From Microglena sp. YARC (Eukaryota > Chlorophyta > Chlorophyceae > Chlamydomonadales > Chlamydomonadaceae): DNA of 64,000 bases. Where the stretch lies: assembly GCA_022414725.1 (NCBI GenBank), contig CM039462.1, positions 181,696,103 to 181,760,102 of the forward strand, written 5' to 3'. The notes under the pieces are model-generated. The model had not been told where the DNA came from, ran no database searches, and saw nothing but the letters and a program-made list of their open reading frames with translations. Shown one piece after another: positions 1,530-31,800 of the stretch; the first letter of the stretch is position 1; each line of letters opens with the position of its first letter. A program made the translations under genes and the position numbers.

Positions 1530-1941
1530 TAACCAGGCCTAGATATAGGGAGGGGAGGGGAGGGGGAGGGGAGGGGAGGGAGGGGAGGGGAGGGGAGGGG
1601 AGGGAGGGGAGGGGAGGGGAGGGGAGGGAGAGGATTGGAGTGTTGGCTGCAAGGTGTTCTCAACCAATCTTGGGAAGGGGCAGAGGGGAGGGGAGTGTTG
1701 GCTGCAAAGCCAGTGCAGTCGACCAAACCTAAATAGCAGGGGAGGGGGTGGAGGGGAGGGAAGTGTTGGCTGCAAAGTCAACTTAGTCAACTAGACCTGA
1801 ACAGCAGGGGAGGGGGCGGAGGGGAGGGGAGTGTTGGCTGCAAAGTCAACTTAGTCAACTAGGCCTAATATGACGGACTAGCCTGCCAGTTTGCCTGATC
1901 GTACATCGTCGTCGCCACCTCGATAATCGTTTCCGCCACAT
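1530..1941 (-). repeat. Purine-rich (GGGGA)n tract and duplicated last-exon edge of the signal peptidase gene
   Basis: The tract at 1546-1632 is almost pure G/A on the plus strand. At about 1640-1870 there are three or four diverged copies of the segment that in the last exon encodes the C-terminal residues around TALASKTS (GTGTTGGCTGCAAAG on plus), each followed by an AACAGCAGGGGAGGGGG spacer. These lie downstream of the gene on the minus strand and look like tandem copies of its 3' end. Confidence 0.6.
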
Positions 1942-2130
1942 CTAAACAGCAGGGGATGGGGCGGAGGGGAGACTGGTCTTTGATGCCAAGGCAGTGTAGT
2001 CCGTCAAACGTCCAATGCGGTTAGGTGGCCAGTACTTAGACACAGCCCTCCCCAAGATGTTCTCAACTGGCAAGGGGCCCCAGATGTGGCTGTCATAGCT
2101 GTTGTTGCGGTTGTCACCGTTCATGAAGAC
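1942..2130 (-). CDS. Signal peptidase last exon (GDNR box and C-terminus)
   Basis: The acceptor is CTACTGTGCAG; the exon has 62 codons and a TAG stop. It encodes [18 protein letters not shown], then [20 protein letters not shown]. The final roughly 14 residues ([12 protein letters not shown]) lie in C-rich sequence and may not be conserved. Confidence 0.9.
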
Positions 2131-4196: not shown

Positions 4197-4235
<39 letters not shown>

Positions 4236-4890: not shown

Positions 4891-4939
<49 letters not shown>

Positions 4940-7900
4940 GTATATCTTAGTGGTAGAACAAATAAAAATAACACATAACACATGTATATCATATATATAT
5001 CTATGTGTATATCTTAGTGGTAGAACACATGTATATCGTCTAATAAGCTGTAGAGGTATGTCTGACAGGCCATTACTGACCCAACGATAATTATTACACC
5101 ATACCCTGTTTTGCAAAAAATAAACGAATTATAAATCAAAAATCAATCCAAAGACAACCAACCATGATTTCTACATACCAAACTCCAAGACGACAAACTG
5201 CAATTTCAAATTCAAAGACAACCAATCGTGATTTCAAATTCAAAGACAACCAACCATGATTTCTACATACCAAACTCCAAGACGCCAAACTGCAATTTCA
5301 AATTCAAAGACAACCAATCGTGATTTCAAATTCAAAGACAACCAACCGTGATTTCAAATTCAAAAACAACCAACCGTGCTTTCTACAACATACCAAACTC
5401 CAAGACAAGCCCACACCACCACTGTTTTTCTTTGTGCGAGGCGTCGCAAATTGAGCGACTTGGTGGGACCCCAGTGCGACGCGCTGCCCCCAGAACCCCG
5501 CGGAGCACGGAGCACGGGGGGTTCAGGGGGTGGTGGTGTGTGTGTGTGTGGTGGTGGGGAGGTCTGTCTAGTTTTGCCGGACCCATGCGTCCCCATGCAG
5601 CGACGGAATTGCTACGCGTTGCGAACAAAATGCAGTTCACACCACATCCATGTTGGGTCCTCCAACAATACTTCGTGATAAATCGTCCCAAGCAAACACC
5701 ACTTACAACAAAATTATGCGAAACAATAACATAACCATTACAACAAAAAGCACTTGCAAAAAATGGTCCCAAACAACAACAAAGAAGAAGCAAAAAAGAA
5801 ACAAACACCACTACACCAACACTATACCACAGACACCACTTACATATCGAGGAGGAAAGGTTAGCTTGTTTAGGATATCATGGTCATTAGGATAGCATGG
5901 TTGAGGGGGCCACCGTGTGAAGAACAAAATCAAAACAAACACTACACCAACACTAAACCACAGACACCACTTACATACCGAGGAGGAAAGGTTAGCTTGT
6001 TTATGATATCATGGTCATGAGGATAGCATGGTTGAGGGGGCCACCGTGTGAAGAACAAAATCGAAACAAAAACTACACCACCACTACACCACCACTATAC
6101 CACATACACCACTTGCAAATCCAGGAGGAACTGTTAGCTTGTTTAGGATATCATGGTCATTAGGATAGCTTGGCCATTAGGATAGCATGGTTGAGGGGGC
6201 CACCCTGCGAAGAAGAAAACAAACGAAACAAACACTACTTACATATCCGGGAGGAACGGTTAGCTTATTTAGGAACAAGTTCTATGCATCGTCGCCTGCG
6301 ACGCTAAAAATGGCGGAGAGTGATCGCGAGGGAGCGACAGGTGGCAACGGAAGCGAGTTAGTTATGAGACCGTTGGCTGACGTGTCGGGCTTCATCACGG
6401 TCAGACGGATGGATGGACGAACGGACAAATGGGTAACACTGGTGGCTCCCGCCCCCCAGAAGGGGGGCTCCGCCAAAAAACGAAACACGCACCACTACTT
6501 CACTACACCACAAACACCACTACACCACCACCACGACACCGCCAATAAACCACATACGTATCCAAGAGGAACGGTTAGCTTGTTTAGAATATTATTCCTC
6601 CGCTTACAACAAAATGGTCCGAAACAATACAAATAAGAAAAAAACGAAACAAACAGCACTGCACCATTAACCTCTCCAGGAGGAATGGTTAGCTTGTCTA
6701 GAAAACAAACGAAACAAACACCACTTCATCACTGCACCACCACTACACCACTAACCTCTCCAGGAGGAATGGTTAGCTTGTTTAGGATATCATGGTCATT
6801 AGGATAGCATGGTTGAGGGGGCCACCCTGTAAAGAAGAAAACAAACGAAACAAACACCACTTACACATCCAGGAGGAATGGTTAGCTTGTTTAGGAAAAA
6901 AAACGAAACAAACACCACTACATCACTGCACCGCCACTACTCCACTTACACATCCAGGAGGAATGGTTAGCTTGTTTAGAAAAAAAACGAAACAAACACC
7001 ACTACATCACTGCACCACCACTACACCACTTACACATCCAGGAGGAATGGTTAGCTTGTTTAGGATATCACGGTTTAAGGATAGCATGGTTGAGGGGGCC
7101 ACCCTGTGAAGAAGAAAACAAACGAAACAAACATCACTTACACATCCAGGAGGAATGGTTAGCTTGTTTAGAAAAAAAACGAAACAAACACCACTACATC
7201 ACTGCACCACCACTACACCACTTACACATCCAGGAGGAATGGTTAGCTTGTTTAGAAAAAAAACGAAACAAACACCACTACATCACTGCACCACCACTAC
7301 ACCACTTACACATCCAGGAGGAATGGTTAGCTTGTTTAGGATATCATGGTCTAAGGATAGCATGGTTGAGGGGGCCACCCTGTGAAGAAGAAAACAAACG
7401 AAACAAACATCACTTACACATCCAGGAGGAACGGTTAGCTTGTTTAAGACATAATTTGGCTTCTCATTGATGAATGGCTCCTCACGAGCCATTCCGTTGA
7501 CGAACAGAGTTCCATCATGCACCTGCAAAAAACACAGATTGTATTTGAATTTGAATTTGAGTTTGAATTAAAGTGTCGACCTTTATTAAGAGCTTGAGTT
7601 TGAGCTTTATTATGACAGCAAGTTTTATTTTTATTTTTTTAGTTGATACTTGACCCCCTCACCTCGAAAGTGTCACAAGCTACAGCCACAACCTCTTGAT
7701 GACCATTTAGCTGACATTTGAGTTTGAATTTGAGGTCTGATTTGAATTTGAATTTGAATGAGTATTTGATCACCTCCAGTGTCACAAGCTACAGCCACAA
7801 CCTCTTGATGACCATTTCGATGAGGTTTCTATTTCAAATTGAGGTCGATTTTGAATTTGAATTGATCCCCTCACCTCAAGACTGTCACCAACTACAACAG

Positions 7901-10722
7901 CAACTATATTGATGAACATTTAGCTGACGTTTTAGTTTTAGTTTGAATTTATGGTCGAGTTTGAATTCGAATTTTGAATTTAGTTGACCCCCTCACCTCC
8001 ACAGTGTCACCAGCTACAGCCACAACCTCGTGATGAACATTTATCTGACATTTGAGTTTGAGCTTGAGTTTTAAAAAGACGTCCAATTTGAATTTGCATT
8101 TCATTTGATCCCCTCACCTCCACAGTGTCACCAGCTACAGCCAGTACCTCTTGATTAACATTTAGCTGACGTTTGAGTTTGAGTTTGAAATTGAGGTCCA
8201 ATTTGGATTTGAATTTGAATTTGAATTTGCAGTTGTATTGAACTGCTCACCTCCACAGTGTCGCCAGCTACAGCTACAATCCTCTTGATGAATACATCAT
8301 CTCCAAACAAGTTCTTCTCAACGACACCATCTGGTGGATGGAAGATGACGACATCGCCAGCGACAGGTGCCCTTAGGGTAGTTTGAGATTAGGAGAGAAG
8401 AGGGGGAGAGAGGGTGGGGGTGAGGCGGGGGTAAGGTCACATAAGACCATATGAGGGAGGGGGTGGGCAGAGAGAGTGGGAGAGTGGGGAGGGAGAGAGT
8501 GGAGAGAGAGTGGAGAGAGAGTGGAAAGAAAGTGGGAAGATGACGACATCGCCAGCGACAGGTGCCCTAAGGGTAGTTTGAGATCAGGAGAGAAGAGGGG
8601 GAGAGAGGGTGGGGGTGAGGCGGGGGTAAGGTCACATAAGACCATATGAGGGAGGGGGTGGGCAGAGAGAGTGGGAGAGTGGGGAGGGAGAGAGTGGAGA
8701 GAGAGTGGAGAGAGAGTGGAAAGAAAGTGGGAAGATGACGACATCGCCAGCGACAGGTGCCCTAAGGGTAGTATTAGATCAGGAGAGAAGAGGGGAGAGA
8801 GGGTGGGGGTGAGGCGGGGGTGAGGCCACATGAGACTATATGAGGGAGGGGGAGGGGAGAGAGAGTGGGAATGGAAATCGGGGGGAGAGAGAGTGGAGAG
8901 AGAGTGGGAAGATGACGATACCGCCAGCGACAGGTGCCCTAAGGGTAGTTTGAGATCAGGAGAGAAGAGGGGGAGAGAGAGTGGGGGTGAGGCGGGGGTC
9001 AGGCCACATGAGACTATATGAGGGAGGGGGTTGGGAGAGAGAGTGGGAATGGAGAGTGGGGGAGAGTGAGAAGATGACGACATCGCCAGCGACAGGTGCC
9101 CTAAGGGTAGTTTGAGATCGGGTGAGAAGAGGGGACAGAGGGTGGGGCTGAGGCGGGGTAAGGCACATAAGACTATATGAGGGAGGGGCGGGGAGGGGGA
9201 GAGAGTGGAGAGAGAGTGGGAAGATGACGACAACGCCAGCGACAGGTGCCTTAAGGGTAGTTTTAGATCAGGAGAGAAGAGGGGGAGAGAGGGTGGGGGT
9301 GAGGCAGGGTAAAATTATTGTTTGGGTCTCAGTCCATCAGTGATTTTTCGTTTTTAGCCCCTCCGGTCACGATTAGGCTAGTCCCTTGAGCCTCTTTGGC
9401 CTACCCCTGGACTGTAACAACATACACAGCTAACCACTACACAGCAACCAACAGCCTACAGCAACCAACAGCAACCGACAGCAGACAGCAACCAACAGCC
9501 GACAGCAACCAACAGCCGACAGCAACCAACAGCCTACAGCAACCAACAGCAGCCGACAGCAACCAACAGCCAACAGCAACCAACAGCCGGCTTACCTAAG
9601 GAAGCGGAAAGTGACCTTTTCAGCTATAAGCCTGTCTCCCACTTCGAAAGTTGGGAACATGGACAGGGAGGGGATGAAGCGAGGCTCGGCAATGAATCTG
9701 TGGACAAACAGAGGAAAAAGATAAGGAGTGAGGATTGAGGATTGAGGAGTGGGGAGTGAGGATGAGCTAGGCCTGCCATGAATCTGTGGACGAACAGAAG
9801 AAGAAGACAAGGAGTGAGGAGTGAGGAGTGAGGAGTGGGGAGTGAGGAGTGAGGAGTGAGGATGAGCATGGCCTAGCATGAAGGGGTGTGAGGATGAGCT
9901 TGGACTGTCATGAATCTGTGGACGAACAGAAGAAGAAGACAAGGAGTGAGGAGTGAGGAGTGGGGAGTGAGGAGTGAGGAGTGAGGATGAGCATGGCCTA
10001 GCATGAAGGGGTGTGAGGATGAGCTTGGACTGTCATGAATCTGTGGACGAACAGAAGAAGAAGACAAGGAGTGAGGAGTGAGGAGTGAGGATGAGCATGG
10101 TCTGGCATGAAGGGGTGTGAGGATGAGCTTGGACTGTTATGAATCTGTGGACGAGCAGAAGAAGAAGACAAGGAGTGGGGAATGGGGAGTGAGGATGAGC
10201 ATGGTCTGGCATGAGGGGGTGTGAGGATGAGCTTGGACTGTTATGAATCTGTGGACAAACAGAAGAAATAGACAAGGAGTGAGGACTGAAGTCAAACAAA
10301 CAAACAAACAAACGAACAAACAAACAAACCTCGCGTCCGAATGGCCAAACACACAAACAAACAAATTCACATCTGAATGGCCAAACAAACAAGCAAACAC
10401 TATGTCCAAATTGCCGAGCAAGCAAACAAACAAACAAATTCACGCCCAAATGGCCAAACAGACAAACAAACAAACTCACGTCCGAATGGTCAAGGAGACA
10501 GCTACGGCCGCCCCGATGGTTAACAGGTCGTCCTTGTAAATCTTCATGCCGGCAAAGTTGAACGTCTCCTCCTCCTCTCCTTCTGGTCCCCCTTCTCCAC
10601 CAGGCCCCCCTGGCCCCCCCCCTGGTCCCTCATCGCCCCCTCCTGTCTTTGTCTCGGTCTTCACATCGGAGGTGGAAGAAGAGCGGCAGGGTCGGCCTCT
10701 CATGAAGCTTCTGGCAGCAATC
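1942..10722 (-). CDS. Thylakoidal processing peptidase / type I signal peptidase (split gene, 5' end not found)
   Basis: This gene encodes a membrane-bound type I signal peptidase (family S26, Ser-Lys dyad), the class that removes lumen-targeting peptides in chloroplast thylakoids. Reading the minus strand, exons are 10722-10480, 9697-9596, 8371-8251, 7522-7418 and 2130-1942. Phases agree at all four junctions and give 252 codons. In order: a Gly/Glu-rich linker, a hydrophobic anchor starting [14 protein letters not shown], the catalytic serine box [13 protein letters not shown], the catalytic lysine box [17 protein letters not shown], the strand [10 protein letters not shown], and the box [17 protein letters not shown]. 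The close match of the [11 protein letters not shown] and WGPLP segments to plant Plsp1-type enzymes is family knowledge; thylakoid location is inferred. The first exon(s), with start codon and transit peptide, should lie above 10722 and were not identified. Introns are filled with copies of adjacent exon edges. Confidence 0.9.
2530..2742 (-). mobile_element. SINE-like repeat, family A, copy 2
   Basis: This is an inverted copy, starting TTTTTGGAGGAGCCCCCTC and ending GCGACGCTGCATAGGACTTG on plus. It sits inside the minisatellite and is followed one base later by a family B element, so the two are nested or were inserted side by side. Confidence 0.6.
2744..2810 (-). mobile_element. Dispersed repeat, family B, copy 1
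   Basis: Family B carries TTGCAGTCCAGGGGTAGGCC at one end and GTGA(T/C)AGG...GGGCTAAAA at the other. Other copies are at 9351-9417, 14825-14857, 30248-30293 and 34559-34625. It is roughly 65-70 bp and non-coding. Copies often touch simple repeats such as (GTAT)n. Confidence 0.55.
3831..3941 (+). repeat. Fragment of family C (GTCTAGGGCTA...GAGGCGAAAAT)
   Basis: The segment GCGTCTAGGGCTAGCTTCGG followed by GAGACCTACCCTTTGAGGCG is shared with units in the 11.6-13.0 kb cluster, so this is a dispersed copy of that repeat. Confidence 0.5.
3942..4157 (+). mobile_element. SINE-like repeat, family A, copy 3
   Basis: This is a near full-length copy with the palindrome AGCGTCGCCTGCGACGCT near its 5' end and the run GGGGGGCTCCGCCAAAAAA at its 3' end. 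Confidence 0.65.
4198..4231. repeat. Poly-C run of 34
   Basis: This is a pure C homopolymer. Similar long C or G runs recur through the window (13157, 14252, 16458, 19462, 62506). Confidence 0.9.
4232..5140. other. No gene seen; AT-rich with local duplications and a (TA)n tract
   Basis: A segment around TTCAGGTTC(G/T)GTCTT followed by CTTAGGCAGGCCATTA is present twice (about 4494 and 4633). The phrase TTAGTGGTAGAACACATGTA recurs at about 4857, 4947 and 5016 around (TA)n at 4875-4945. The open frames are short and show no family resemblance. Confidence 0.4.
5145..5405. repeat. AT-rich minisatellite (CAAATTCAAAGACAACCAA units)
   Basis: Several units combine ATTTCAAATTCAAAGACAAC with CATACCAAACTCCAAGACG. 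No coding potential is seen. Confidence 0.7.
5406..5819. other. Unassigned mixed sequence
   Basis: This stretch has GC-rich exon-like sequence at about 5430-5520 and a short (GT)n tract at about 5530-5560. A minus-strand frame over 5383-5811 is open but contains proline/histidine translations of simple repeats. No domain was recognised. Confidence 0.3.
5820..7417 (-). repeat. Tandem copies of the exon-7418 donor edge
   Basis: At least a dozen units carry ACATCCAGGAGGAATGGTTA then GCTTGTTTAG (or close variants). On the minus strand this reads [10 protein letters not shown] followed by GTAAGT, the end of the 7418-7522 exon plus its donor. Spacers are CGAAACAAACACCAC and CACTACACCAC-type repeats and a second segment, AGGATAGCATGGTTGAGGGG. 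A family A element interrupts the array at 6275-6480. Confidence 0.85.
6275..6480 (+). mobile_element. SINE-like repeat, family A, copy 4
   Basis: This copy is inserted in a minisatellite whose other units read TTTAGGAAAAAAAACGAAAC without the element. Those units give an empty-site comparison and place the boundaries at ACAAGTTC and GCCAAAAAA. Confidence 0.7.
7418..7522 (-). CDS. Signal peptidase exon (substrate-binding strand region)
   Basis: The acceptor is GTTTTTTGCAG and the donor is TGT|GTAAGT. The exon is exactly 35 codons: [20 protein letters not shown] then [15 protein letters not shown]. Its donor end is duplicated many times downstream. Confidence 0.92.
7523..8250 (-). repeat. Intron built of copies of the exon-8251 donor edge plus (GAATTT)n
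   Basis: Five diverged units at about 7660, 7770, 7870, 7990 and 8115 carry CTCACCTCCACAGTGTCACC then AGCTACAGCCACAACCTC. On the minus strand this is the 3' end of the neighbouring exon ([13 protein letters not shown]) with its GTGAGG donor. They are separated by TTTGAATTTGAGTTTGAA-type spacers. Confidence 0.85.
8251..8371 (-). CDS. Signal peptidase exon (catalytic lysine box)
   Basis: This 121-nt exon lies between a CCCTAAG acceptor and a GAG|GTGAGC donor. It encodes [17 protein letters not shown] and then [20 protein letters not shown]. The lysine in IKR is the expected general base. Both ends have tandem copies in the flanking introns. Confidence 0.92.
8372..9320 (-). repeat. Intron built of copies of the exon-8371 acceptor edge plus GAGAGTGG spacers
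   Basis: Five further copies of GATGACGACATCGCCAGCGA then CAGGTGCCCTAAGGGTAG lie at about 8536, 8735, 8913, 9075 and 9223, spaced 150-200 bp. Each carries the TTAG acceptor and the first about ten codons ([10 protein letters not shown]) of the downstream exon. Spacers are G/A-rich with GAGAGAGTGGAGAGAG words. Confidence 0.88.
9351..9417 (-). mobile_element. Dispersed repeat, family B, copy 2
   Basis: This is an inverted copy reading TTTTTAGCCCCTCCGGTCAC ... GGCCTACCCCTGGACTGTAA on plus. Confidence 0.55.
9430..9590. repeat. (CAACAGCC/AGCAAC)n simple repeat in an intron
   Basis: Heptamer- and octamer-like words CAACAGC, CGACAGCAAC and CTACAGC alternate up to the donor of the 9596 exon. Confidence 0.8.
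9596..9697 (-). CDS. Signal peptidase exon (catalytic serine box)
   Basis: The acceptor is TTTGTCCACAG and the donor is AG|GTAAGC. The 102-nt exon encodes [20 protein letters not shown] and then [13 protein letters not shown]. The serine in SLSM is the expected nucleophile of family S26. Confidence 0.92.
9698..10280 (-). repeat. Copies of the exon-9697 acceptor edge
   Basis: About six units carry CATGAATCTGTGGACGAACA followed by GAAGAAGAAGACAAGGAGTG. On minus these read as the polypyrimidine tract, TTCGTCCACAG acceptor and first bases of the serine-box exon. Spacers are (GAGTGAG)n. Confidence 0.85.
10285..10474. repeat. (CAAA)n-rich intron segment
   Basis: AAACAAACAAACAAAC tracts alternate with about 20-bp words such as GTCCGAATGGCCAAAC. 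The latter resemble the donor edge of the 10480 exon (GTCCGAATGGTCAAGG), so this also fits exon-edge duplication. Confidence 0.7.
10480..10722 (-). CDS. Signal peptidase exon (linker and membrane anchor)
   Basis: The acceptor is CCACCCAG at 10723-10730 and the donor is GTGAGT just below 10480. The exon carries 1 + 80x3 + 2 nt. It encodes a basic segment, a GGP/GE-rich linker, then [14 protein letters not shown] leading into the transmembrane anchor. An in-frame ATG lies at 10703, but an acceptor and sensible frame upstream suggest this is an internal exon. Confidence 0.8.
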
Positions 10723-11130
10723 CTGGGTGGGAGTGTTTGTGTGGGTGTGGGTGTGTTTGTGTGGGTGTGGGTGTGTGGGTGTGTGGGGGTAGGTGGGGGG
10801 CCGAGGAGCGGCAGGGTCGGCCTCTTATGATGCTCCTGGCAACAATCCTGGGTGGGAGTGTGTGTGCGTATGTGTGTGGGTGTGTGGGTGTGTGGGTGTG
10901 TGGGGGTAGGTGGGGGGCCGAGGAGCGGCAGGGTCGGCCTCTTATGATGCTCCTGGCAACAATCCTGGGTGGGAGTGTGTGTGTATGTGTGTGGGAGTGT
11001 GGGTGTGGGTGTGTGGGTGTGGGTGTGTGGGTGTGGGTGGGTAGGTGGGGGGCCGAGGAGCGGCAGGGTCGGCCTCTTATGATGCTCCTGGCAACAATCC
11101 TGTGTGTGTGTATGTGTGTGTGTTTTGTGT

Positions 11131-11161
<31 letters not shown>

Positions 11162-11165: not shown

Positions 11166-11214
11166 TTTGACACCAGCAGTATGGATGAATACACATAACT
11201 AGGGTTGACAAGTG

Positions 11215-16539: not shown

Positions 16540-16785
16540 ATGGACGAGATTCGCAGGTCGCGCGCGTTGATGGAGGAAATCCTAGCGCGCGCAGCAAGCA
16601 TCAAGAAGACCATGGCCGACGTGAAATGCAGGATGAACAGCATGAATGATATCGAGGAAGGTCGGGTGAAGAAACCCGACACCGAGGCAGAGTTAGGAAC
16701 GAAACTGGATGACATGCAGGACGAAATATTGACACATATCTGCAAGCACCTGAATTCTTTCAAATCCCTGGTGGCATTATCCCAG
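16540..16785 (+). CDS. F-box gene exon 1
   Basis: The ATG in CGCCATGG context opens 82 codons. It encodes a basic helical segment ([20 protein letters not shown]), then the first half of the F-box, ending VALSQ before GTGGGG. A longer in-frame upstream extension would pass through the poly-C run, so this ATG is preferred. Confidence 0.75.
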
Positions 16786-19459
16786 GTGGGGCTGCTGGAT
16801 GTGTGTGGATGTGACACTTGTGTTTGTGTGTTGGTGTTTGTGTTTGTGGGTGTAGGTGTAGATGTGTGTGTGTGTGTTGTGTGAGGACTGTGGAATGGAG
16901 TGGGGTGGGTGTGGGGGTTGGGGGGAGGAAATTCAGTCCTAATAGAGCACATACTGAACACACACACAACACAAACCACACTCAACACATTCTACACACT
17001 CAACACACTAAACACACTTAACTCACTCAACACACTCAAGGCAATCAACACACTCAAGGCAATCAGCACACTCAACACACTCAAGACAATCAACACATCA
17101 ACACACACCTCCACCACCACCTCCACCACCTCCACCTCCACCTCCACCTCCACCTCCACCTCCACCTCCACCTCCACCTCCACCTCCACCTCCACCTCCA
17201 CCTCCACCTCCACCTCCACCTCCACCTCCACCTCCACCTCCACCTCCACCTCCACCTCCACCTCCACCTCCACCTCCACCTCCACCTCCACCTCCACCTC
17301 CACCTCCACCTCCACCTCCACCTCCACCTCCACCTCCACCTCCACCTCCACCTCCACCTCCACCTCCACCTCCACCTCCACCTCCACCTCCACCTCCACC
17401 TCCACCTCCACCTCCACCTCCACCTCCACCTCCACCTCCACCTCCACCTCCACCTCCACCTCCACCTCCACCTCCACCTCCACCTCCACCTCCACCTCCA
17501 CCTCCACCTTCCACCTCCACCTCCACCTCCACCTTCCACCTCCACCTCCACCTCCACCTCCACCTCCACCATCCCCTCCACCCCACCTAAACCACCACCT
17601 CCACCTTCACCTCCACCTGAACCACCACCACCATCTAACCCACCACCTCAACCTCCCCCCTTCTCCCCTTAGAGCTGCACTAGAATCCACAGTCTTGTGA
17701 AGAGTGATAAACAAAGCTGGGAAACAATGTGCCGACAGGAGTTGGGCATTGTAGAAGTAGACCCCACCAGGGTGCCCCGTCTCGACACTACTCTGATGAT
17801 TGGGCTGTCTGCCAAGGTGGATGTGGGGGTGCAGGGGCTGGAGGATGGAGGTGGACGTGGTGGATCGTCCAAGGGGAATGTTTGGCTCAACATCTACAGG
17901 GACAGGATAGAGGTGAGAGTGGCAGGAGAGGGGGGGGGGGGTGGAGGGTGTGGAGGGGGCGAGGGTGTAGTGGGGGAAGGGGGCGAGGGGCGAGGGGGGG
18001 GAGGACGGGCGAGGGGGGAGGGTAAGGGGGAGAGGGTGTAGAGGTGGAGGGGGAGAGGGTGTGGAGGGGGAGGGGGAGAGGGTGTTGAGGGGGAGGGGAA
18101 AGGGTGTAAATGGGAGAGGGGAGAGGGTACAGGGGCTGGAGGATGGAGGTGGACGTGGTGGATCATCCAAGGGGAACTTTTGGCTCAGCATCTACAGGGA
18201 CAGGATAGAGGTGAGAGTGGCAGGAGAGGGGGGGGGGGGGGGGAGGGTGGAGGGGCGAGGGTGTAGTGGGGGAAGGGGCGAGGGGCGAGGGGGGGAGACG
18301 GGCGAGGGGGGGAGGGTAAGGGGGAGAGGGTGTAGAGGTGGAGGGGGAGAGGGTGTGGAGGGGAGGGGGAGAGGGTGTTGAGGGGGAGGGGAAAGGGTGT
18401 AAATGGGAGAGAGGGAGAGGGTACAGGGGCTGGAGGATGGAGGTGGACGTGGTAGATCATCCAAGGGGAACTTTTGGCTCAGCATCTGCAGGGACAGGAT
18501 AGAGGTGAGAGTGGCAGGAGGGGGGGGGGGGGGGGGGGCGAGGGTGTAGTGGGGAAGGGGGCGAGGGGCGAGGGGGGGAGGACGGCGAGGGGGGGAGGGA
18601 AGGGGGAGAGGGTGTAGAGGGGAGGGGGAGAGGGTGTGGAGGGGAAGGGGGAGAGGGTGTGGAGGGGGAGGGGGAGAGGTGTCGAGGGGAGGGGAAAGGG
18701 TGTAAATGGGGAGAGGGAGAGGGTACAGGGGCTGGAGGATGGAGGTGGACGTGGTGGATCATCCAAGGGGAACTTTTGGCTCAGCATCTGCAGGGACAGG
18801 ATAGAGGTGAGAGTGGTGGGCGAGGGGAGGGAGAGGGTGCGGAAGGCGAGGGAGAGGTGGAGACAGAAGAGGGGGGAGAGGAGAAGAGAGGGGAGAGGGT
18901 GTGGAGGGGGAGAGGGGAGAGGGGCTGGAAGATGGAGGTGGACGTGGTGGGTTGTCCAAGGGAATGTTTGGCTCAGCATCTGCAGGGACAGGATATAGGT
19001 GAGAGTGGTGGGAGAGGGGGGGAGGGGGAGAGGAGGGTGTGTGGGCGAGGGTGTGGTGGGGGAGGGGAAAGAGGGGAGAAAGGAGGGCGGTGAGGGAATA
19101 GGGGAGGGGGGAGAGGAGAGAAGAGAGAAGAGAAGAGAGGGGAGAGGGTGTGGAGGGGGGAGAGGGAGAGGGGCTGGAGGATGGAGGTGGACGTGGTGGG
19201 TTGTCCAAGGGGAATGTTTGGCTCAGCATCTGCAGGGACAGGATATAGGTGAGAGTGGTGGGAGAGGGGGGGGAGGGGAGAGGAGGGTGGGGTGGGGCGA
19301 GGGTTGTGGGGGAGGGGGAAGAGGGGAGAAAGGAGGGCGGTGAGGGGATAGGGGAGGGGGAGAAGAGAGAAGAGAAGAGAGGGGAGAGGGTGTGGAGGGG
19401 GAGAGAGGAGAGGGGCTGGAGGATGGAGGTGGGACATGGTGACTCATCCAAGGGAATCT

Positions 19460-19508: not shown

Positions 19509-19780
19509 ATCCCCCCCACCCACCCACAAATATACTGGAACTTGGCAATGCAAGGCTGGAGGATGGTGAGGAACGTGCTGCAATGGTTAAGAGTCCTACA
19601 CACACAGGACAGTACCCTCCCCACCCACCCACCCACACCCACACCCACACCCACCCACACCCACCCACCCACATACACCCACATACACACACGCAGGGCT
19701 GGAGGGTGGTGAAGAGCGTGCTGCAATGCTTAATAGTCCTACACACAGGACAGAACAGCGCCCCCCCCCCCCCCCCACCA

Positions 19781-19868
<88 letters not shown>

Positions 19869-22800
19869 CACACACACATACCCACCCACACACCTACCCA
19901 CCCACACATCCACACCTACCCACACACTGGGCTGGAGGATGGTGGTTAAGAGACCTACACATACACACACACGCACACACACACACACAGGGCTGGAGGA
20001 TGGTGAGGAACGTTCTGCAATGGTTACGAGACCACGGAGCACCTCGTAACGTTTCTGGATCGATGCATCGCCTGCAGCTGCAGCTAGCACTCAAGTACAT
20101 GGCTCTGGGAACCTGCCACACACATGACCAGCCACGCAAACAGGAGGTAGGTTTTGGTGCAGGTGTAGGTAGGTGTAGGTGCAGCTAGCGCTTAAGTACA
20201 TGGCTCTAGGAACCTGCCACGCACTTGACCAGCCTCGCCAACAGGAGGTAAGTGTAGGTTTAGATGTACATGTATATGTAGGTGGTGGTGAAGATGTAGG
20301 TGGTGGTGGTGGTGGTGGTGGTGGTGGTGATGGTGTAGGTGGTGGTGGTGTGTGGTGGTGGTGGTGAAGATGTAGGTGTGGTGGTGGTGGTAGCGGTATA
20401 GGTGATGGTGTAGGTGATGGTGTAGGTGTAGGTGTAGGTGTAGGTGCAGCTAGCGCTCAAGTACATGGCTTTAGAAACCTGCCACACACATGACCAGCCT
20501 CGCAAGCAGGAGGTAGGTGCAGGTGTAGGTTGGTGTAGGTGTAGGTTGGTGTAGGTGTAGGTGTGGGTTGGTGTAGGTGTAGGTGTATGTAGGTGTTGTT
20601 GAGGTGTAGGTAGGTGTAGGTGCAGCTATCACTCCAGTACATGGCTCTTGGAACCTGCCACACACATGACCAGCCACGCAAGCAGGAGGTAGGTAGGTGG
20701 TGGTGGTGGTGGTGTAGGTGGTGGTGATGGTAGTGTAGGTGTATCTGTAGGTAGGTGAATGTGCAGGTAGGTGTAGGAAGGTGAAGGTGTAGGTAGGTGA
20801 AGGTATAGGTAGGTGTAGGTAGGTGTTGGTGTAGGTTGGTGTAGGTGTTGGTGTAGGTGCAGATGCAGCTAGCGCTCGCGTACATGGCTCTAGGAACCTA
20901 TCATCCACATGACCAGCCTCACAAAAAAGGGGTAGGTGTAGGTGTAGGTAGGTTTAGGTGTAGGTAGAGGTAGAGGTAGGTAGGTGTAGAGGTAGGTAGG
21001 TGTAGGTGTAGGTAGGTGGTGGTGGTGGTGGTGTAGGTAGGTGTGGGTGTAGGTAGGTGTGGGTGTAGGTAGGTGTGGGTGTAGGTAGGTGTAGTTGTAG
21101 GTGTAGAGCTCGGTTTAGGTGTATGTTGGTGGTGGTTTAGGTGTAGGTTTAGGTGTAGGTAGGTGGTGGTGAAGGAGTAGGTGTCGGTAGGTGTCGGTAG
21201 GTATATGTAGGTGTAGAGGTAGGTATGTGTAGGTAGGTGTAGAGGTAGGTAGGTGCAGGTAGGTGTATGTGTAGGTAGGTGTAGGTGTCGGTAGGTGTAA
21301 GTAGGTGTATGTGTCGGTAGGTGTAGGTGTCGGTAGGTGTAAGTAGGTGTAGAGGTAGGTAGGTGTAGGTGTCGGTGGGTGTAAGTAGGTGTATGTGTAG
21401 GTAGGTGTAGGTGTCGGTGGGTGTAAGTAGGTGTATGTGTCGGTAGGTGTAGGTGTCGGTAGGTGTAAGTAGGTGTAGAGGTAGGTAGGTGTAGGTGTCC
21501 GTAGGTGTAAGTAGGTGTAGAGGTAGGTAGGTGTAGGTGTCGGTGGGTGTAAGTAGGTGTATGTGTAGGTAGGTGTAGGTGTCGGTAGGTGTAAGTAGGT
21601 GTATGTGTAGGTAGGTGTAGGTGTCGGTAGTGTAAGTAGGTGTAGTAGGTATTGTAGTGTCGGTGTAGTAGTGTGTAGTGTGTATGTGTAGGTAGGTGTA
21701 GGTGTCGGTAGGTGTAAGTAGGTGTATGTGTAGGTAGGTGTAGGTGTCGGTAGGTGTAAGTAGGTGTAGAGGTAGGTAGGTGTAGGTGTCGGTAGGTGTA
21801 AGTAGGTGTATGTGTAGGTAGGTGTAGGTGTCGGTAGGTGTAAGTAGGTGTATGTGTCAGGTAGGTGTAGGTGTCGGTAGTGTAAGTAGGTGTAGAGGTA
21901 GGTAGGTGTAGTTCGGTAGGTGTAAGTAGGTGTATGTGTAGGTAGGTGTAGGTGTCGGTGGGTGTAAGTAGGTGTATGTGTAGGTAGGTGTAGGTGTCGG
22001 TAGGTGTAAGTAGGTGTATGTGTAGGTAGGTGTAGGTGTCGGTAGGTGTAAGTAGGTGTAGAGGTAGGTAGGTGTAGGTGTCGGTAGGTGTAAGTAGGTG
22101 TATGTGTAGGTAGGTGTAGGTGTCGGTAGGATTATGTGCAGGAAGGTGTAGGTGTAGAGAACAACTCGGCACTGTAAATGGTTGGGTCGTTGGTTGGTTG
22201 GTTGGTTGGTAGGTTGGTAGGATAATTAGTTTGGTTGCATTACACTGCCCTCTAACATTTTATTTTTGTTTCCGTCCCATGCACAGATACTTGAATTGGA
22301 GGGACCTGTTTCCCTGCTGTCCTTGCTGGAGGAGAGGTGGGGGTGGGGGGGTGAAAAAACAAAAATGTCCTACATTTGTACCACAAATTGTTTTCGTCAC
22401 ACATTTGTTTTTGTCCCACCCACAGATACTTGAATTGAAGGGACCTGTTTCCCTGCTGTCCTTGTTAGAGAACAACTCAGCACTAGGAATGGTTGGTTGG
22501 CTGGACGGACATTTAGTTAGGTCGCCTGAAACTCCCCTCAAACATTTGTTTCTGTCCCATGCACAGATACTAGAATTGGAGGACCTGTTTTCCCTGCTGT
22601 CCTTGCTAGAGAACAACTCGCCAGGCAGTGCAGGAGGCGGCCCTTGAGGTGATATCAAACTTGTTGGTTGGAGACGCAGACACCAAATTCAAAGTCCTGG
22701 TGAGTGTGTGTGCGTGTGTGTGTTGGTGTGGTGCGTGGGGGGGTGGGTGGTGAGGGGGGGGGCGGAGGGGGCGCTGGTTATAAGGGGGCGGAGAGGTGTG

Positions 22801-25800
22801 TGTGTGTGTGCGCTGGTGGTAGGGTGTGTGTGTGTATGCGGGGGAATGGAGTTCGCTCAACTCCCCGGCAGTACAGGAGGCGGCCCTTGAGGTGCTATCA
22901 AACCTGTTGGTCGGAGACGCAGACACCAAATTCAAAGTCCTGGTGAGTGTGTGGGCGCTGGCTGTTAGGGGGGGGGGGGGGGGAGTGGTGTTGTGTATGT
23001 GGTTGTGTGTGTATGTCGTGTGTGTGTTCGGGGGTGGGGGGGTGGGTGGGGGGTGGGTTGGGGGGGTAGTGGTGTGTGTGCGTGGGCGTGGGCGGCGGGT
23101 GTGGCAGCGGGCGGGCAGGTGGTAGGGAGACGCTTAAAATTCTCGCATGCCTCAAGAAGACTGTTCTGACCATGCCGGGCGTCTAGCGGTATTTATTTAT
23201 TCATGTATTTATTTAGTTATTTATTCATGTATTTATTCATGTATTTATTCATGTATTTATTTATGTATTTGTTTATTTATTTATTCATTCATTTATAGAT
23301 TGTATGCCGCAGGTTGGCAGCCGCATGGGAAAGGCCTTGGCAGACCACCTGGACGTGCTGACCGTGCCAGCAGTCTATCGTTATTTGTGTATTTATTAAT
23401 TAATTAATTGATTCATTTATTTATTATTTATTATTTATTATTTATTTATTTATTTATTTATTTTATTTATTTATTTATTTATTTTATGCCACAGGTCGGC
23501 GGCCGCATTAGAAAGGCCATGGCAGACCACCTGGATGTGTTGACCGTGCCAGCAGTCTAGCGGTATTTGTGTATTTATTTATGTATGTATTGTATGCCGC
23601 AGGTCGGCAGCCGCATGGGAAAGGCTATGGCAGACCACCTGGACGTGCTGACCGTGCCAGGTGTTATCGGTATTTATTGATTTATTTAGGTAGTTAGTTG
23701 GTTAGTAATCTATTGATTGATTGATTAATTGATTGATTGTTTTTGTGACGCAGGTTGGCAGCTGCATGGGAAAGGCCATGGCGGACCACCTGGATGTGCT
23801 GTCTGTGCCAGGTGTTATCGTTTTTTTGGCGGAGCCCCCCTCTTCAAGGGGGGCGAGAGCCCCCATGTTTACCCATTTGTCCGTCCGACCGACCGACCGA
23901 CCGACCGACTGACCGCAATGAAGCCTGGCACGTCAGCCAACGGCCTCGTAACTAACTCGCTTCCGTTGCCACCTGTCGCTCCCTTGCAATCACTCTCCGC
24001 CAATTTTTAGCGTCGCAGGCGACGCTGTATAGACCTTGTCAGTTAGTTAGCCAGTTAGTTAGTTGGTTAGTTATCTATTTATGGAATTATTTATTGATAG
24101 ATTTTTCTCTCTATGGCAGGTTGGCAGCCGCATGGGAAAGGCCATGGCAGACCACCTGGACGTGCTGACCGTGCCAGGTGTGGTAAGGCAAGGCAGCAGG
24201 TGCTTAGTCAATCTTTGGGCGGAGCCCCCTGTGCCTGAGGTCTGCCCCCTCACAGAGGTGAATGAAGCGTCAAGCCCGCTGCTAGAGCCGGGGGCCTGGC
24301 TGCTGCAGGAGTACTCTCTGCGTGGGGAGAGTATGGAGTGAGTCACTGTAATTTGATGTAATTTAATGCTATTTTGGGTGTTTGGGGGTGTGTGTGGGGG
24401 TGAGTTTTGTGTGGGTGGGTGGAGGTGGAGGTAGAGCTGGGGGCCTGGCTGCTGCAGGAGTACTCTCTGCGTGGGGAGAGCATGGAGTGAGTCACTGTAA
24501 TGTAATGTGATGTACTGTAATGTAATTTTTGTGTTTGGGGTGGGGATGTGGGTGGGGGTGAGTGATGGTGGAGGTGGTCATGCCCGCTGCTGGAGCCGGG
24601 GGCTGGCTGCTGCAAGAGTATTCTCTGCGTGGGGAGAGGGGGAGAGCATGCTGGTGGAGTGAGTCACTGTACTGTAATGAACTGTAATTTAATATAATGT
24701 AATTTTAGGTGTTTGGGGCGGGGGTGAGTGAGGGTAGATGTGGTGGTCATGCCCACTGCTGGAAAGGGGGGCCTGGCTGCTGCAGGAGTATTCTCGGTGT
24801 GGGGAGAGCATGGAGTGAGCCACTGCACTATAATGTTAGGTGTTTGGGGGTGGGGTGAGGGTGGGTTGGTGGAGGTGGAGGTGGGTGGGGGCGAGGGTGG
24901 ATGTGGGGTGGATGTGGGGGTGGATGTGGGGGCCTGGCTGCTGCAGGAGTATTCACTGCGAGGGGAGAGCATGGAGTGAGAAACTGTAATGTTCTGTAAT
25001 GTTATGTTATGTAATGCAATGTAGTGTAATGTAATGTAATTTTAGGTGTTTGGGGGTCGGGGTGGGGGTGGGGTTAGGTGTGGGTGGATGTGGGGGTGGA
25101 GCTGGGGGCCTGGCTGCTGCAGGAGTATTCTCTGCATAGGGAGAGCATAGAGTGAGTCACGAAGCCTGTACCACCAACACCACCACCTACCACCAACACC
25201 ACCACCCACCAACACCCAACACCACTACCAACAACACCAACACCAATACCACCAACACCACAAATACCAACACCACCAACACCAACACCCACCAACACCC
25301 AACACCCACCACCAACACCCACCACCACTACCAACAACAACAACACCAATACCACCAACACCACAAATATCAACAACACCAACACCCACCAACACCAACA
25401 CCACCCACCACAACCAACACCACCCACCACAACCAACAACACCCACCACCGCCAACAACAACAACCACCCACCACCAACAACCACCCACCCAACAACCAC
25501 CCACCACCACCACCCACTAACACCCACCACCACCACCACCACCACCACCCATCCAACAACCACCCACCACCACCACCCACTAACACCCACTACTGCCACC
25601 ACCACCACCACCACCACCCACCCCCACCCCAAGCCACCTCCACCCTAGCCCACCACCACCAACCCACCACCAACACCACCAGCACCACTACCACCACCCA
25701 CCACCACCCCAACCAACCAACACCACCAACACCAACACCAACGCCCCAGCCATGCAAATATCTACTTCCTAAGATGTTTACATAAACAGATGTGCCTTAT

Positions 25801-28800
25801 AAAGCCCTTACTAAGGATGGCCGCCATTTCAAAAAAACAAAATGAAGAACTATGGGCTTTGTCTTTGTTTTAGGCGTTTGGTGTGGGGGTGGAGGTGGGT
25901 GTGAGGGGGAAGTGGGGTGAGGTTGAGGTTGAAGGGGGGGGAGGTGGTGTGAGGAATGGAGGTGGGGGGAGGTGGGTGTGAGGGGGTAAGTGGGGGTGAG
26001 GTTGAGGTTGAAGGGGGGGGGTGGAGGTGGGTGTGAGGAATGGAGGTGGGGGTGGAGGTGGGGGTGGAGTGGGGTGAGGGGGAAGTGGGGGTGAGGTTGA
26101 CGTTGAAGGGGGGGGGGGTGGAGGTCAGGGGTGGAGGTGGGTGTGAGGAATGGAGATGGGGGTGGAGGTGGGTGTGAGGGGGGAAGTGGGGGTGAGGTTG
26201 AGGTTGAAGGGGGGGGGGGGGGAGGTCAGGGGTTGAGGTGGGTGTGAGGAATGGAGGTGGGGGTGGAGGTGTGGGTGAGGTTGAGGTTGAAGGGGGGATG
26301 GAGGTGAGGGGTTGAGGTGGGTGTGAGTAATGGAGGTGGGGGTGGAGTGGGTGTGAGGAGGGAAGTGGGGGTGAGGTTGAGGTTGAAGGGGGGATGGAGG
26401 TGAGGGGTTGAGGTGGGTGTGAGGAATAGAGGTGGGGGTGAGGGTGGAGGTGGGGGTGAGGATGGAGGTGGGGTGGAGGTGGAGGTGTGAGGGTGGAGGT
26501 GGGTGTGAGGGTGGAGGTGGGGATGCAGGTGGGTGTGAGGGTGGAGGTGGGGATGCGGGTGGAAGTGGGGGTGAGGGTGGAGATGTGAGGGTGGAGGTGA
26601 GGGTGGAGGTGGGGGTGAGGGTGGAGGTGGTGTGAGGGTGGAGGTCAGTGTGAGGGTGGAGGTGGGTGTGAGGGTGGAGGTGGGATGGAGGTGGGTGTGA
26701 GGGTGGGGGTAGAGGTGGGGGTGAGGGTGGAGGTGGGGGTGAGGGTGGGGTGTGTGTGAGGGTGTGTGTGGGTGTGAGGGTGGGTGTGAGGTGAGTTGCC
26801 TAGACTCAAATAGTCAAGATTGACTCTAGATAACTAGACAATTGCCATATTAGTATCATATAATCAGAGAGTGCCTTATTATTGGCCTTTTGGGACAGAC
26901 GGTTTAGACCCATGGACTACAGTCCAGTGAAAACAAAAAAATGCTACAAAGTTGCTTAACCACATCAGCTCAGCATATAAATACTTGGATTTAGGTATGC
27001 CCAGGGTTTGGCAACCAGATGAAGTCAAACCTTTTCTTTTTTTCACTATGGGGGTCCCTAATTCAGGACAGATTTCACACAAATGTGGGACAGAGCCAAA
27101 CGCAGATTACCAGACAATTACCATATTATTATCATATAATCCAGTATAATCAGATATAATTCACATTTAATTTCCATGTATAAATACCGTACAATTTGTA
27201 TATTTTTCCAAGCAATTACCACGTAGATAACCATAGAATTGTCTATGGTTATTGCCATGTAAATTGCCATGTCAAGTGCCATGTAAAGTGCCATGTAAAT
27301 TGCCATGTAAAGTATGAAACTGCGTGCTTACCTCAATTGCAGGCTCATCCGCTTCACGCTCAGCTTTGATCCGATCAGTGGGAGATTGCATGGCTGTGGT
27401 GATGATAAGGTGGGTCTGGGATTTTGGCATGACCGTGGTGACGATAGGGTGGGTCTGGGATAGTGGCATGACTCTGGAGATGATCAAGCGTGGTTCGGGA
27501 ATGATTGTGGGGGCTGGGATAGTGTGAGGGCTCAGTGGAAATGATGTGGGGGGCTGGGATAGAGTGAGGGCTCAGTGAAAATGATGTGGGGGGCTGGATA
27601 GAGTGAGGCTCAGTGGAAATGATGTGGGGGGGGCTGGGATAGAGTGAGGGCTCAGTAGAAATGATGTGGGGGGGCTGGGATAGAGTGAGGGCTCAGTGGA
27701 AAATGATGTGGGGGGGCTGGGATAGAGTGAGGGCTCAGTGGAAATGATGTGGGGGGGCTGGATAGAGTGAGGGCTCAGTGGAAATGATGTGGGGGGGCTG
27801 GGTTGATGATAGGGTGGGTCTGGGATAGTGGCAGGGCTGTGTGATAGATAGTGGTCTGGTATAGTGGGAGGGCTATGGGTCGATAGGGTGGGTCTGGGAT
27901 AGATGATAATGTGATCATTTAATTATAATTAGAATGTAACCACCATCAATGTAATGTTGCTTCCCCCCTGTCCGGCCCCCTACTCCACAAACACCTCCCC
28001 CACACTCACACAACACAGCCCCCCACGCATAATATCGAGGAGGTCCCTGCCTCCAATGCACACATGTGGTGGGCCAGAGAGTCCTACCTTCACCCCACCA
28101 AGTATGCTCAACACACCGCCACCTCCACCAACAACAACATGCATGCCGTGGTGACGATCAAGCGTCAAACTTGTGTCCATAGCTTTTCATCTCAGCTATG
28201 AGTAGCAGCTTCTAGGCAGCTCCCTGAGCCAGCCAAGAGGAGTTTGATGTGGCAGGCACCCTAAACCCTAAACATTTTGCCCTAAACTCTTAGCCCTAAA
28301 CCTTCAACCCTAAACCCTGAACATTTACCCCGTAACCCTAAACTCGTGTTCAGCTGATATTCAGATCGGAGTTGAGCAAGAGGAGTTTGAAGTAGCAGGC
28401 ACCTTCAAACCTACACTCTAAACCCTGAACCCTAGACCCGTGTTCAACTGACATTCAGGTCGGAGAGGAGCAAGAGGAGTTTGAAGTAGCAGGCACCCTC
28501 AACCCTACACTCTTAGCCCTAGACCCTTAGCCCATGCTCAACTGATCTTCAGGTTGGAGATGAGAAAGAGGACTTTCAAGTGACAGGCACCCTAAACCAT
28601 ACACCCTAAACCCTAAACTCTTAGCCCTAAACTCTTAGCCCCAAACCCTCAGACCTAACCCTAAACCCTAAACCCTAAACCCTTGTTCAACTGATATTCA
28701 GGTCGGAGATGAGCAAGAGGAATTTGAAGTAACAGGCACCCTGGTCATGAGCACTGGCATCTGGACCTTGCAACGCCGCTACTTGAATAGCCGTATGCAA

Positions 28801-31800
28801 GTCACCGTCCTGTACAGGTAGGTGTATGTGTGTGTGGTGTGGGTGTGTGTGTGTCTGTTTGTGTGTGTTATATATGTGTGTGGTATGTGTGTGGGATGTG
28901 TACGTGTGTGTGTGTGGTATTTGTATCTGTGTGTGTGGGATGTGTAGCCTCAAAGAAAAATACCGGTACTAAGGATCTGCCTAGAAGCTGCTACGAGTAG
29001 CCCAAAAGAAAGACACTGGCATCTAGACCTTGCAACGCTGCTACTTGAATAGCCGTATGCAAGTCACCATCCTGTACAGGCAGGTGTGTGTGTATGTGTG
29101 GTTGTGATATGTGTGTGGTATGTGTGTGCGTGTGTGGTATGTGTGTGTGTGGTATGTTTGTGTGGTATGTGTGTGTTTGTGTGTGTATGTGTGTGTGGTA
29201 TGTGTGTGTGTGGTATGTGTGTGTTTGTGTGTGTGTGTGGTGTGTGTGTGGTATGTGTGTGTGGTGTTTGTGTGGTATGTGCGTGGTGTGTGTGTGGTAT
29301 GTGTGTGTGGTGTGTGTGTGGTATGTGTATCTGTGTGTGTGGTATGTGTAGCCTCAAAGAAAAATAACGGTACTAAGGATCTGACTTGAAGCTGCTACGA
29401 GTAGCCCAAAAGAAAGACACTGGCATCTGGACCTTGCAATCCCGCTGCTTGAATAGCCGTATGCAAGTCACCGTCCTGTACAGGTAGGTGTGTGAGTGTG
29501 GGTGTGTGTATGTGTGTGTATGTGTGTGTAAGGTATGTGTGTGTATGTGGTATGTGTGTGGTATGTGTACGTGTACGTGGGTGTGTATGTGTACGTCTGG
29601 TGTGTGTGTGCGTGAAACATGAGCACTGGCGTCTGGAGCTTGCAACGCCGCTACTTGAATAGCCATATGCAAGTCACCGTCCTGTACAGGTAGGTGTGTG
29701 CGTATGTGTGGTGTGTGTGTGTGGTATGAGTGTGTGTGGTATGTGTGCGTGTGTGGAATGTGTGTGTGTCTGTGTGTGTGGTATGTGTGTGTATGTGTGT
29801 GGTATGAGTGTGTGTGGTATGTGTTCGTGTGTGGAATGTGTGTGTGTCTGTGTGTGTGGTATGTGTGTGTGTGTGTGTGGTATGTGTGCGTGTGTGGTAT
29901 GTGTGTGTGTCTGTGTGTGTGGTATGTGTGTGTGTGTGTGTGGTATGTGTGCGTGTGTGGTATGTGTGTGTGGTATGTGTGTGTGTGTGTGGTATGTGTG
30001 CGTGTGTGGAATGTGTGTGTGTCTGTGTGTGTGGTATGTGTGTGTGTGTGTGGTATGTGTGCGTGTGTGGAATGTGTGTGTGTCTGTGTGTGTGGTATGT
30101 GTGTGTGTATGTGTGTGTGTGTAAAATTAGCACTGGCATCTGGACCTTGCAACGCTGCTACTTGAATAGGCGCATGCAAGTCACCGTCCTGCACATGTAG
30201 GGTGTGTGCGTGTTTGTGTGGTGTGTGTGCGTGTGTGTATGTGTATGTTGTTGCAGTCCAGGTGTAGCCAAATAAATTAAAGGGACTGCAACAACACACA
30301 CATACACAGACATACATATACACATACACATACATATGCACGTACACATACACGTACACATACACGTACATATACTCATACACATACACATGAACGCAAA
30401 CATGCACATCATGTGATATGCTGTGGCCTAGTGCACCAACCAACCATCTGACCAACCATCCAAGCAACCAACCAACCAACCAACTAACAACCATCCAACC
30501 AAACCAACCACCAACCAACCAACTAACCCTTTCCCGATGCAGTGGATACTCCGATGCACATGGAGCGTGGGGCGTATACAACAGCCATAGGGCCTCTGGC
30601 CTAATGCACCAACCAACCAACCAACCAACCAACCAACCAACCAACCAACCATCCAACCAACCAACCAACCAACCAACCAACCAACCAACCAACTAACCCT
30701 TTCCCGATGCAGTGGCTACTCCGATGCACATGGAGCGTGGGGCGTATACAACAGCCAGAGGGCCTCTGGTCTAATGCACCAACCAACCAACCAACCAACC
30801 AACCAACCAACCAACCAACCAACCAACCAACCAACCAACCAACTAACTCTTCCCCGATGCAGTGGCTACTCCGATGCACATGGAGCGTGGGGCGTATACA
30901 ACAGCCAGAGGGCCTCTGGCCTAATGCACCAACCAACCAACCAACCAACCAACCAACCAACCAACCAACCAACCAACCAACCAACCAACCAACCATCTGA
31001 CCAACCAACCAACTAACCCTTCCCCGATGCAGTGGCTACTCCGATGCACATGGAGCGTGGGGCGTATACAACAGCCAGAGGGCCTCTGGCCTAGCTCAAA
31101 CTTTCGTTGTCTCTTCCAGCCGTCAGCCACGTGTGTTCAGATTATTCACAGACCCGAACCCCGAGCTGAGCTGTCATCTGTTGCACGAGACCATAGGGGC
31201 TCAGGACATATTCCGGACCCGGGGGGCTGAGGGGGGCCCTGGGGGGCAGGCCGAGGGGGGGCCTGGAGGGCCAGGCGGGCAAACAGGCAGGGTGGGGGCA
31301 CAGTCGTCGGCTCAGGACATGTTAAGAACCCGGGGGGCTGATGGGGGGCCTGGGGGGCAGGCCGAAAGGGGGCCTGGAGGGCCAGGCGGTCAAGCAGCCA
31401 GAGTGGGGGCACAGTCGTCAGATGGGAGACCCCTTGAGGTTGGGGATATAGATTTGGACTTCGGCACCTCTCCTCTTGGGCCAGGTAGCTGCCAGGCTGG
31501 CTCAGCTACAGCAATGCAGCCATCAGCTACTCCCCTTGAGGTTGGCAACGTAGATTTGGACTTCGACACCTCTCCTCTTGGGCCAGGTAGCTGCCAGGCT
31601 GGCTCAGCTACAGCAATGCAGCCATCAGCTACTCCCCTTGAGTTTGGCGACGTAGATTTGGACTTCAACACTTCTCCTCAGAGTACGTTTACCTCCACAG
31701 AGAGGGTAGCTGGAAGCGGTACGTCTGCCTCCACAGAAAGGGTGCCCGAAATCAATACGTCAGCCATCACAGAGAGGGTAGCTGGAAGCAGTGCGTCAAA

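Follow-up and report, generated by a model that had tools for sequence, protein, structure and literature searches.

Tandem genomic duplication is a described route of intron gain, covering the Rogers model, the vertebrate ATP2A1 gene, cases in fission yeast and the potato RdRp gene; in the latter, the duplicated segment spans an intron-exon boundary and the splice signals are inherited with it (PMC4974935). Here we report a related but much denser pattern in a 64,000-nucleotide (nt) stretch of green-algal nuclear DNA (Microglena sp. YARC, contig CM039462.1, positions 181,696,103 to 181,760,102; hereafter the window). Two genes in it, one for a plastid-type signal peptidase (gene A) and one for an F-box protein (gene B), have introns in which the neighbouring exon edge, together with its splice site, is copied at most junctions, mostly more than once. 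We consider it likely that these intron arrays were left by local tandem duplication that is pervasive, with selection on the mRNA acting as the filter.

The likeness to tandem genomic duplication as outlined there (PMC4974935) is close. A duplication bearing splice signals adds sequence on the intron side, the copies are adjacent, direct and boundary-spanning, and the protein is unchanged since a complete junction remains, which in our case is read from gene models and from homology rather than RNA. The difference is that the described event makes a new intron, whereas in genes A and B 17 of 23 junctions carry copies that appear to have lengthened the intron, up to 11-13 of them, and several introns have them at both ends. 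The initial annotation, made from the sequence alone, knew of no named system of this architecture; duplication across an intron-exon boundary is, however, a precedent already described (PMC4974935). Tandem 90-bp exon arrays are also described for the Tetrahymena LRR genes, where the repeated exons form part of the protein (PMC6564038). Both cases hold repeated exon-plus-intron units within genes; unlike in Tetrahymena, in the window the exon edges alone are copied, and using most of them would break the protein. Complete alternative tandem exons were considered for the window and rejected, as the units hold one exon edge and 52 of 56 copied splice sites (decoys) shift the frame or add a stop.

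Two further classes of repeat are found in or beside introns. Minisatellites, or variable number tandem repeats, occur in introns, and introner elements are repeated sequence associated with introns. The arrays in the window resemble minisatellites in their head-to-tail, diverged units of tens to hundreds of base pairs (bp) and in an exon-side break-point that is common to the copies in 6 of 13 arrays; they differ in that the unit holds an exon end and a splice site, which builds a ladder of decoy sites, and in that 10 of 14 sets of copies are closer to the real exon. With introner elements they share a repeated sequence tied to introns. Introner-like elements as such were rejected, as there are no junction-spanning copies between introns among 231 pairs of an edge and a non-adjacent intron. 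In the literature searched, which left most subscription papers outside, no title or abstract described exon-edge arrays filling introns. What is unusual is how dense the copies are: they occur at most junctions of two neighbouring genes that are unrelated, at both ends of several introns and in large numbers.

The gene models give 9 junctions in gene A and 14 in gene B, 23 in all. For each, 60 exon and 40 intron bases were compared with the whole window, and a match was counted as a copy when it spanned the junction and held at least 12 exon bases (strict rule). At least one copy was found at 17 junctions, with 60 copies in total, which bears out the earlier remark that exon edges are copied, splice site included, around most exon ends of both genes. 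All 60 lie in the adjacent intron stretch, on the same strand and in direct orientation, and none elsewhere in the window, so that donor copies are downstream and acceptor copies upstream, as first described. In controls, dinucleotide-shuffled introns gave 2 spanning matches in 230 tests, and edges compared with non-adjacent introns, for junction-spanning similarity, gave none in the 231 pairs. Array spans, measured from the junction to the farthest copy with spacers and inserts included, occupy 10,883 of the 21,338 bases (51%) of the 11 introns, the share per intron ranging from 0 (16786-17672) to 0.88 (28818-31032). The largest array, at the A4 donor, has 11 copies by the strict rule and 13 by a relaxed one. 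This relaxed rule yields 41 donor and 19 acceptor copies, a set other than the strict 60 (the B5 acceptor drops out and the A4 donor gains). Identity to the real edge runs from 72 to 99%, so the arrays differ in age. The simple repeats between copies differ from junction to junction by eye, as the initial annotation had it. No counted copy was found at the donors of A2 and B1 or at the acceptors of A4, A5, B2 and B6; at the A2 donor and the A5 acceptor, intronic repeats reach to 2-8 nt from the junction and are free of exon sequence.

These counts depend on the gene models, whose exons were read from the sequence, five for gene A on the minus strand and eight for gene B on the plus strand. The gene A product matches plastid-type signal peptidases (Peptidase_S26, E 3.5e-40; Pfam PF10502), and the independently annotated EukProt protein P0001 is contained exactly in the model (residues 7-252, through the stop codon). 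P0001 begins within exon A1 and thus backs eight of the nine junctions of gene A. The remaining one, the A1 acceptor (10722), is a predicted site, no exon being modelled upstream, and an adjacent stretch fixed at 1500 bases stands in for its upstream "intron". A tree of 22 rows, chosen from 120 listed homologues, places gene A as the sister of eight chlorophyte rows (clade 98/93), which by their sources come from Dunaliella, Chlamydomonas, Gonium and others, and which we take to belong to the orders Chlamydomonadales and Sphaeropleales; the tree thus makes an origin in Chlorophyceae likely. Gene B encodes an F-box protein (Pfam PF12937). Its exons are backed, with exceptions, by the EukProt model P0121, which starts within exon B3, and by the relatives P0122 and P0123 (36-37% identity), which the gene B model matches along the aligned parts. 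The B7/B8 junction of P0121 is probably mispredicted, because P0122 and P0123 retain residues that P0121 omits and favour the sites used here. The stretch 28019-28163 has an open frame and was tried as a further exon of gene B; it is missing from all three proteins and was rejected, and the intron is therefore taken as 27410-28701. The EukProt models may be ab initio predictions (the name resembles a GeneMark transcript). Exon B4 carries single-base indels relative to P0121, a model of the same gene, which shift the frame and suggest another assembly version or residual indel errors.

Break-points, taken as the ends of BLAST matches, were compared in the 13 arrays with at least two counted copies. 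The exon-side break-point is constant within 2 nt in six arrays (A1 acceptor +45, A3 acceptor +31/32, A3 donor -41/-42, B3 donor -74, B7 acceptor +39/41, B8 acceptor +61), takes two positions in five (B2 donor, B3 acceptor, B4 acceptor, B5 acceptor, B7 donor) and several in two (A4 donor, B5 donor). This would fit a single founding event, or a small number, for each array. A direct repeat of 8 nt, TGGCCTAG, flanks the B8 acceptor array at 30424-30431 and 31087-31094; it may mark a homology-mediated event or a truncated copy. Intron periods given by Tandem Repeats Finder (TRF) run from 21 to 404 among rows with a period of at least 20. A dispersed element of about 170-230 bp is present in five places on both strands (3930-4160, 6271-6483, 23822-24039, 2530-2742 and 411-581), its copies being 74-89% identical to the first; one sits within the array at the A4 donor, and another separates the B5 acceptor copies from the real exon. 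About 92 tandem units of (CACCTC)n, at 17106-17656, occupy most of gene B intron 1, and telomere-like (CCCTAAA)n tracts are visible by eye at 28260-28690 among acceptor copies of another gene B intron.

We propose that the arrays are minisatellite-like and arose in a stretch of the genome rich in local tandem duplication. A duplication of about 80-400 bp, the spacing of the copies, that straddles an exon edge would place a second exon end, with its splice site, inside the intron. The old mRNA would still be made from the exon-proximal junction, and the change, nearly neutral, could be retained; a duplication within an exon would persist only when in frame, and one within an intron would be tolerated. 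Slippage or homology-mediated copying may have founded the arrays, and further copies may come from array turnover or from repeated duplication of the exon edge. Splicing would continue at the exon-proximal sites, presumably through exon definition or exonic context outside the repeat unit. The polarity of the copies would then be what selection on the mRNA leaves wherever the duplication fell. This would give introns a simple route to lengthen from copies of their borders, without transposons.

One stricter criterion, a local sense-strand copy, was applied to junctions and other points alike, with low-complexity centres excluded (161 intron, 18 non-genic, 3 exon and 4 last exon). Local copies were found at 13 of 23 junctions, at 340 of 644 intron-interior points and at 160 of 439 points taken as non-genic, a set that includes 61700-62180, possibly coding in a third gene (gene C). 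Junctions show no excess over the intron interior in this window (P 0.44). With the region limits set differently, an earlier pass put three non-coding regions at 31%, 41% and 62%, introns at 52%, edge zones at 54% and the stretch 60.7-64 kb at 9%. Tandem arrays are present far from any modelled junction, and the stop-codon boundary of gene A, at which no splice site is modelled, is copied on its 3' side (3 matches, two of them reaching the stop). Coding tandem arrays have a period divisible by three in 7 of 7 TRF rows, and the periods of intron arrays split 24:27:20 over 71 rows, which overlap. Considering that copies are seen at the stop boundary, in interiors, in DNA taken as non-genic and, in frame, in coding sequence, duplication appears to occur in many places, with selection deciding what stays. 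The strong junction enrichment expected at the outset is not borne out by the point counts, which favour a junction-specific process weakly, if at all. The idea in the initial annotation that introns expand by duplication across junctions survives in part: the introns are lengthened by duplication that spans junctions, and the view that junctions are its target is not supported.

A different reading is that transcribed splice junctions, by way of R-loops, paused polymerase, G-rich donors and pyrimidine-rich acceptors, favour duplication of the edge, so that introns grow mainly by their own borders. In 11 of 11 introns of genes A and B, the first 150 nt exceed the last 150 nt in GC skew (G over C), as such targeting would have it, and the copies at 17 of 23 junctions and the 10 of 14 sets closest to the real exon, as though repeatedly drawn from it, point the same way, as does the nominal excess of junctions over points taken as non-genic. 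It sits poorly with the equal frequency in the intron interior, the arrays far from modelled junctions and the copied stop-codon boundary; moreover, the sole modelled intron of gene C (61117-61524) has no copy at either edge. We regard junction-targeted duplication as unlikely. We judge quite unlikely the broader proposition that in this alga introns lengthen chiefly by repeated border copying, each copy drawn anew through a process tied to transcribed splice junctions, with decoy ladders in most genes and splicing that relies on exon definition. Were it true, near-identical donors would follow the 3' side of each exon and near-identical acceptors would precede its 5' side in most genes, and splicing would rely on information outside the unit, since the local site cannot always separate real from decoy.

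Several points weigh against pervasive duplication filtered by selection, and all results come from two genes in one window of one assembly. With gene C included, 8 of 25 edges have no counted copy. Junctions exceed the points taken as non-genic (57% against 36%, nominal one-sided binomial P 0.04). The exon interior has local copies too, at 31 of 124 points for the shorter exons and at 21 of 50 points for the last one. The intron-interior points partly consist of these same edge copies, and so are not an independent background; likewise, the period comparison is partly circular, since the limits of exon B8 were set by its own open frame. Break-point homology is readable at a single array, that of the B8 acceptor, where it is ambiguous with a truncated copy. 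Finally, among the 14 sets with at least two copies (relaxed rule), copies are nearer to the real exon than to each other in 10 and nearer to each other in four (A1 acceptor, A4 donor, B2 donor, B3 acceptor), so that most sets do not speak for recent turnover inside an array. They would suit as well a repeated duplication out of the exon edge, or copies that are old while the exon next to them changes slowly. Our confidence in the proposal is slightly lowered on this account.

The copied splice sites are largely intact. Under the relaxed rule, GT is retained at 37 of 41 donor decoys and AG at 17 of 19 acceptor decoys; the B5 acceptor copies, outside this set, have AG in 4 of 4. The decoy is identical to the real local site in 14 of the 41 donors (nine bases) and 3 of the 19 acceptors. 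One may ask whether such arrays are maintained as functional decoys that regulate splicing through alternative 5' or 3' sites, intron retention or transcript decay, and the intact sites and shared local strings could be read in this way; however, intact sites are also expected of copies that are not old. Where the copies hold exon sequence, it departs from that of the real exon by 49/41/59 changes at codon positions 1/2/3 over 222/223/227 columns (exon B4 and the B5 acceptor left out), and shows no strong constraint. In 52 of the 56 cases evaluated, use of the decoy would introduce a stop or change the reading frame; four would remain open and in frame, a point in favour of such regulation. 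In this evaluation one more decoy had no site, three A1 acceptor decoys were not included, junction positions hold within 3 nt, and the B4 donor decoy was read in the frame of the indel-bearing exon of the window. Introns also share no junction-spanning sequence. Taken together, we find functional decoys very unlikely.

At most junctions, then, it is the exon-proximal sites that the conserved proteins require, since 52 of the 56 decoys would break the reading frame or bring in a stop. Indeed, joining the exon-proximal sites reproduces P0001 exactly, P0001 being a gene model, not RNA. Two modes of splice-site recognition, intron definition and exon definition, are described in PMC3488318. At donors, a rule of "first transcribed" would be enough. 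At acceptors the decoys are transcribed before the real site, so that a signal outside the unit, exon definition or another, would be required. The window is in this sense a natural experiment on splice-site choice, in which a real site competes with up to about a dozen copies: intron definition, which takes the closest donor-acceptor pair, and "first acceptor transcribed" predict decoy use, and exon definition predicts the exon-proximal pair.

It could also be argued that an unpolished long-read assembly inflated or misjoined repeats. The window does contain an N gap (53025-54024) flanked by indel-rich sequence that resembles an unpolished long read, and the single-base indels of exon B4 are of the same kind of concern. 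The edge copies, however, differ mainly by substitution, with 491 mismatch against 85 gap columns (gap share 0.15), compared with a gap share of 0.68 in the stretch beside the N gap (389-column sample) and 0.33 in the next stretch (371 columns). Their 72-99% identity to the real edge means that they are not one read copied, and one copy of the dispersed element lies inside one array and another beside a second. An artefact is thus highly improbable, and we take the arrays as real, with exact copy numbers uncertain. The coordinates of the exons and arrays are given in Table 1.

Table 1. Modelled exons and exon-edge arrays of genes A and B (window coordinates; exon nt, exon bases held by a copy).
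Feature	Position	Strand	Basis
Exon A1, first modelled exon, acceptor end predicted	10480..10722	-	PF10502, P0001
Exon A2	9596..9697	-	sequence model, P0001
Exon A3	8251..8371	-	sequence model, P0001
Exon A4	7418..7522	-	sequence model, P0001
Exon A5, last, with stop codon	1942..2130	-	sequence model, P0001
Exon B1 (F-box)	16540..16785	+	PF12937, model and homologues
Exon B2	17673..17912	+	model and homologues
Exon B3	19991..20146	+	model and homologues
Exon B4, single-base indels relative to P0121	22567..22699	+	model, P0121
Exon B5	24120..24337	+	model and homologues
Exon B6	27343..27409	+	model and homologues
Exon B7	28702..28817	+	model and homologues
Exon B8, in-frame tandem coding arrays within an open frame, uncertain at its 3' limit	31033..32470	+	model
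A1 acceptor edge, 3 copies (45 exon nt each), CA/CCCA-rich spacers	10803..11142	-	
A1 donor edge, 1 copy (14 exon nt; 3 copies relaxed), in (CAAA)n-type DNA	10331..10384	-	
A2 acceptor edge, 1 copy (26 exon nt); 4 more with only 6 exon nt, uncounted	9760..9823	-	
A3 acceptor edge, 5 copies (31-32 exon nt), pyrimidine-rich spacers (GAGAGTGG on plus strand)	8535..9290	-	
A3 donor edge, 5 copies (41-42 exon nt), (GAATTT)n-like spacers	7650..8158	-	
A4 donor edge, 11 strict / 13 relaxed copies; dispersed element 6271-6483 within	5829..7347	-	
Gene A coding-end copies 3' of stop codon, 3 matches, two reach the stop	1672..1826	-	
B2 donor edge, 7 copies (five with the full 60 exon nt queried, two with 12-14), G+A-rich spacers	18151..19289	+	
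B3 acceptor edge, 2 counted copies (19659-19732, 19892-19944) and exon-derived stretch 19554-19596	19554..19944	+	
B3 donor edge, 4 copies, (GTAGGT)n spacers	20174..20963	+	
B4 acceptor edge, 2 copies	22265..22478	+	
B4 donor edge, 1 copy	22857..22957	+	
B5 acceptor edge, 3 strict / 4 copies (58-62 exon nt), (ATTT)n spacers; dispersed element after, 23822-24039	23277..23813	+	
B5 donor edge, 4 strict / 5 copies, G+T-rich spacers	24432..25160	+	
B6 donor edge, 1 short copy (18 exon nt), second under relaxed rule	27796..27841	+	
B7 acceptor edge, 3 copies (39-41 exon nt), telomere-like (CCCTAAA)n spacers	28334..28593	+	
B7 donor edge, 4 copies, (TG)n spacers	29020..30241	+	
B8 acceptor edge, 3 copies (97-99% identical), (CCAA)n spacers	30510..30922	+	

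Scans of the window for RNA families and tRNAs at default settings were empty. One repeat pattern was scanned in viral contigs, where records of the window's own genome were perhaps left out, and had no match. Gene C holds, at 54025-60634, a tandem array in coding sequence whose unit measures 93 bp (TRF on 59600-60650); where this array adjoins the N gap it is rich in indels, as an unpolished read would be. Between 36541 and 52304, a unit of about 800 bp is repeated head-to-tail in twelve copies, one partial and eleven full, the full ones sharing 98-99% identity with the first; between the copies inspected there are long tracts of (ATATG)n and (ATTAC)n, and the translation of the unit contained stops.

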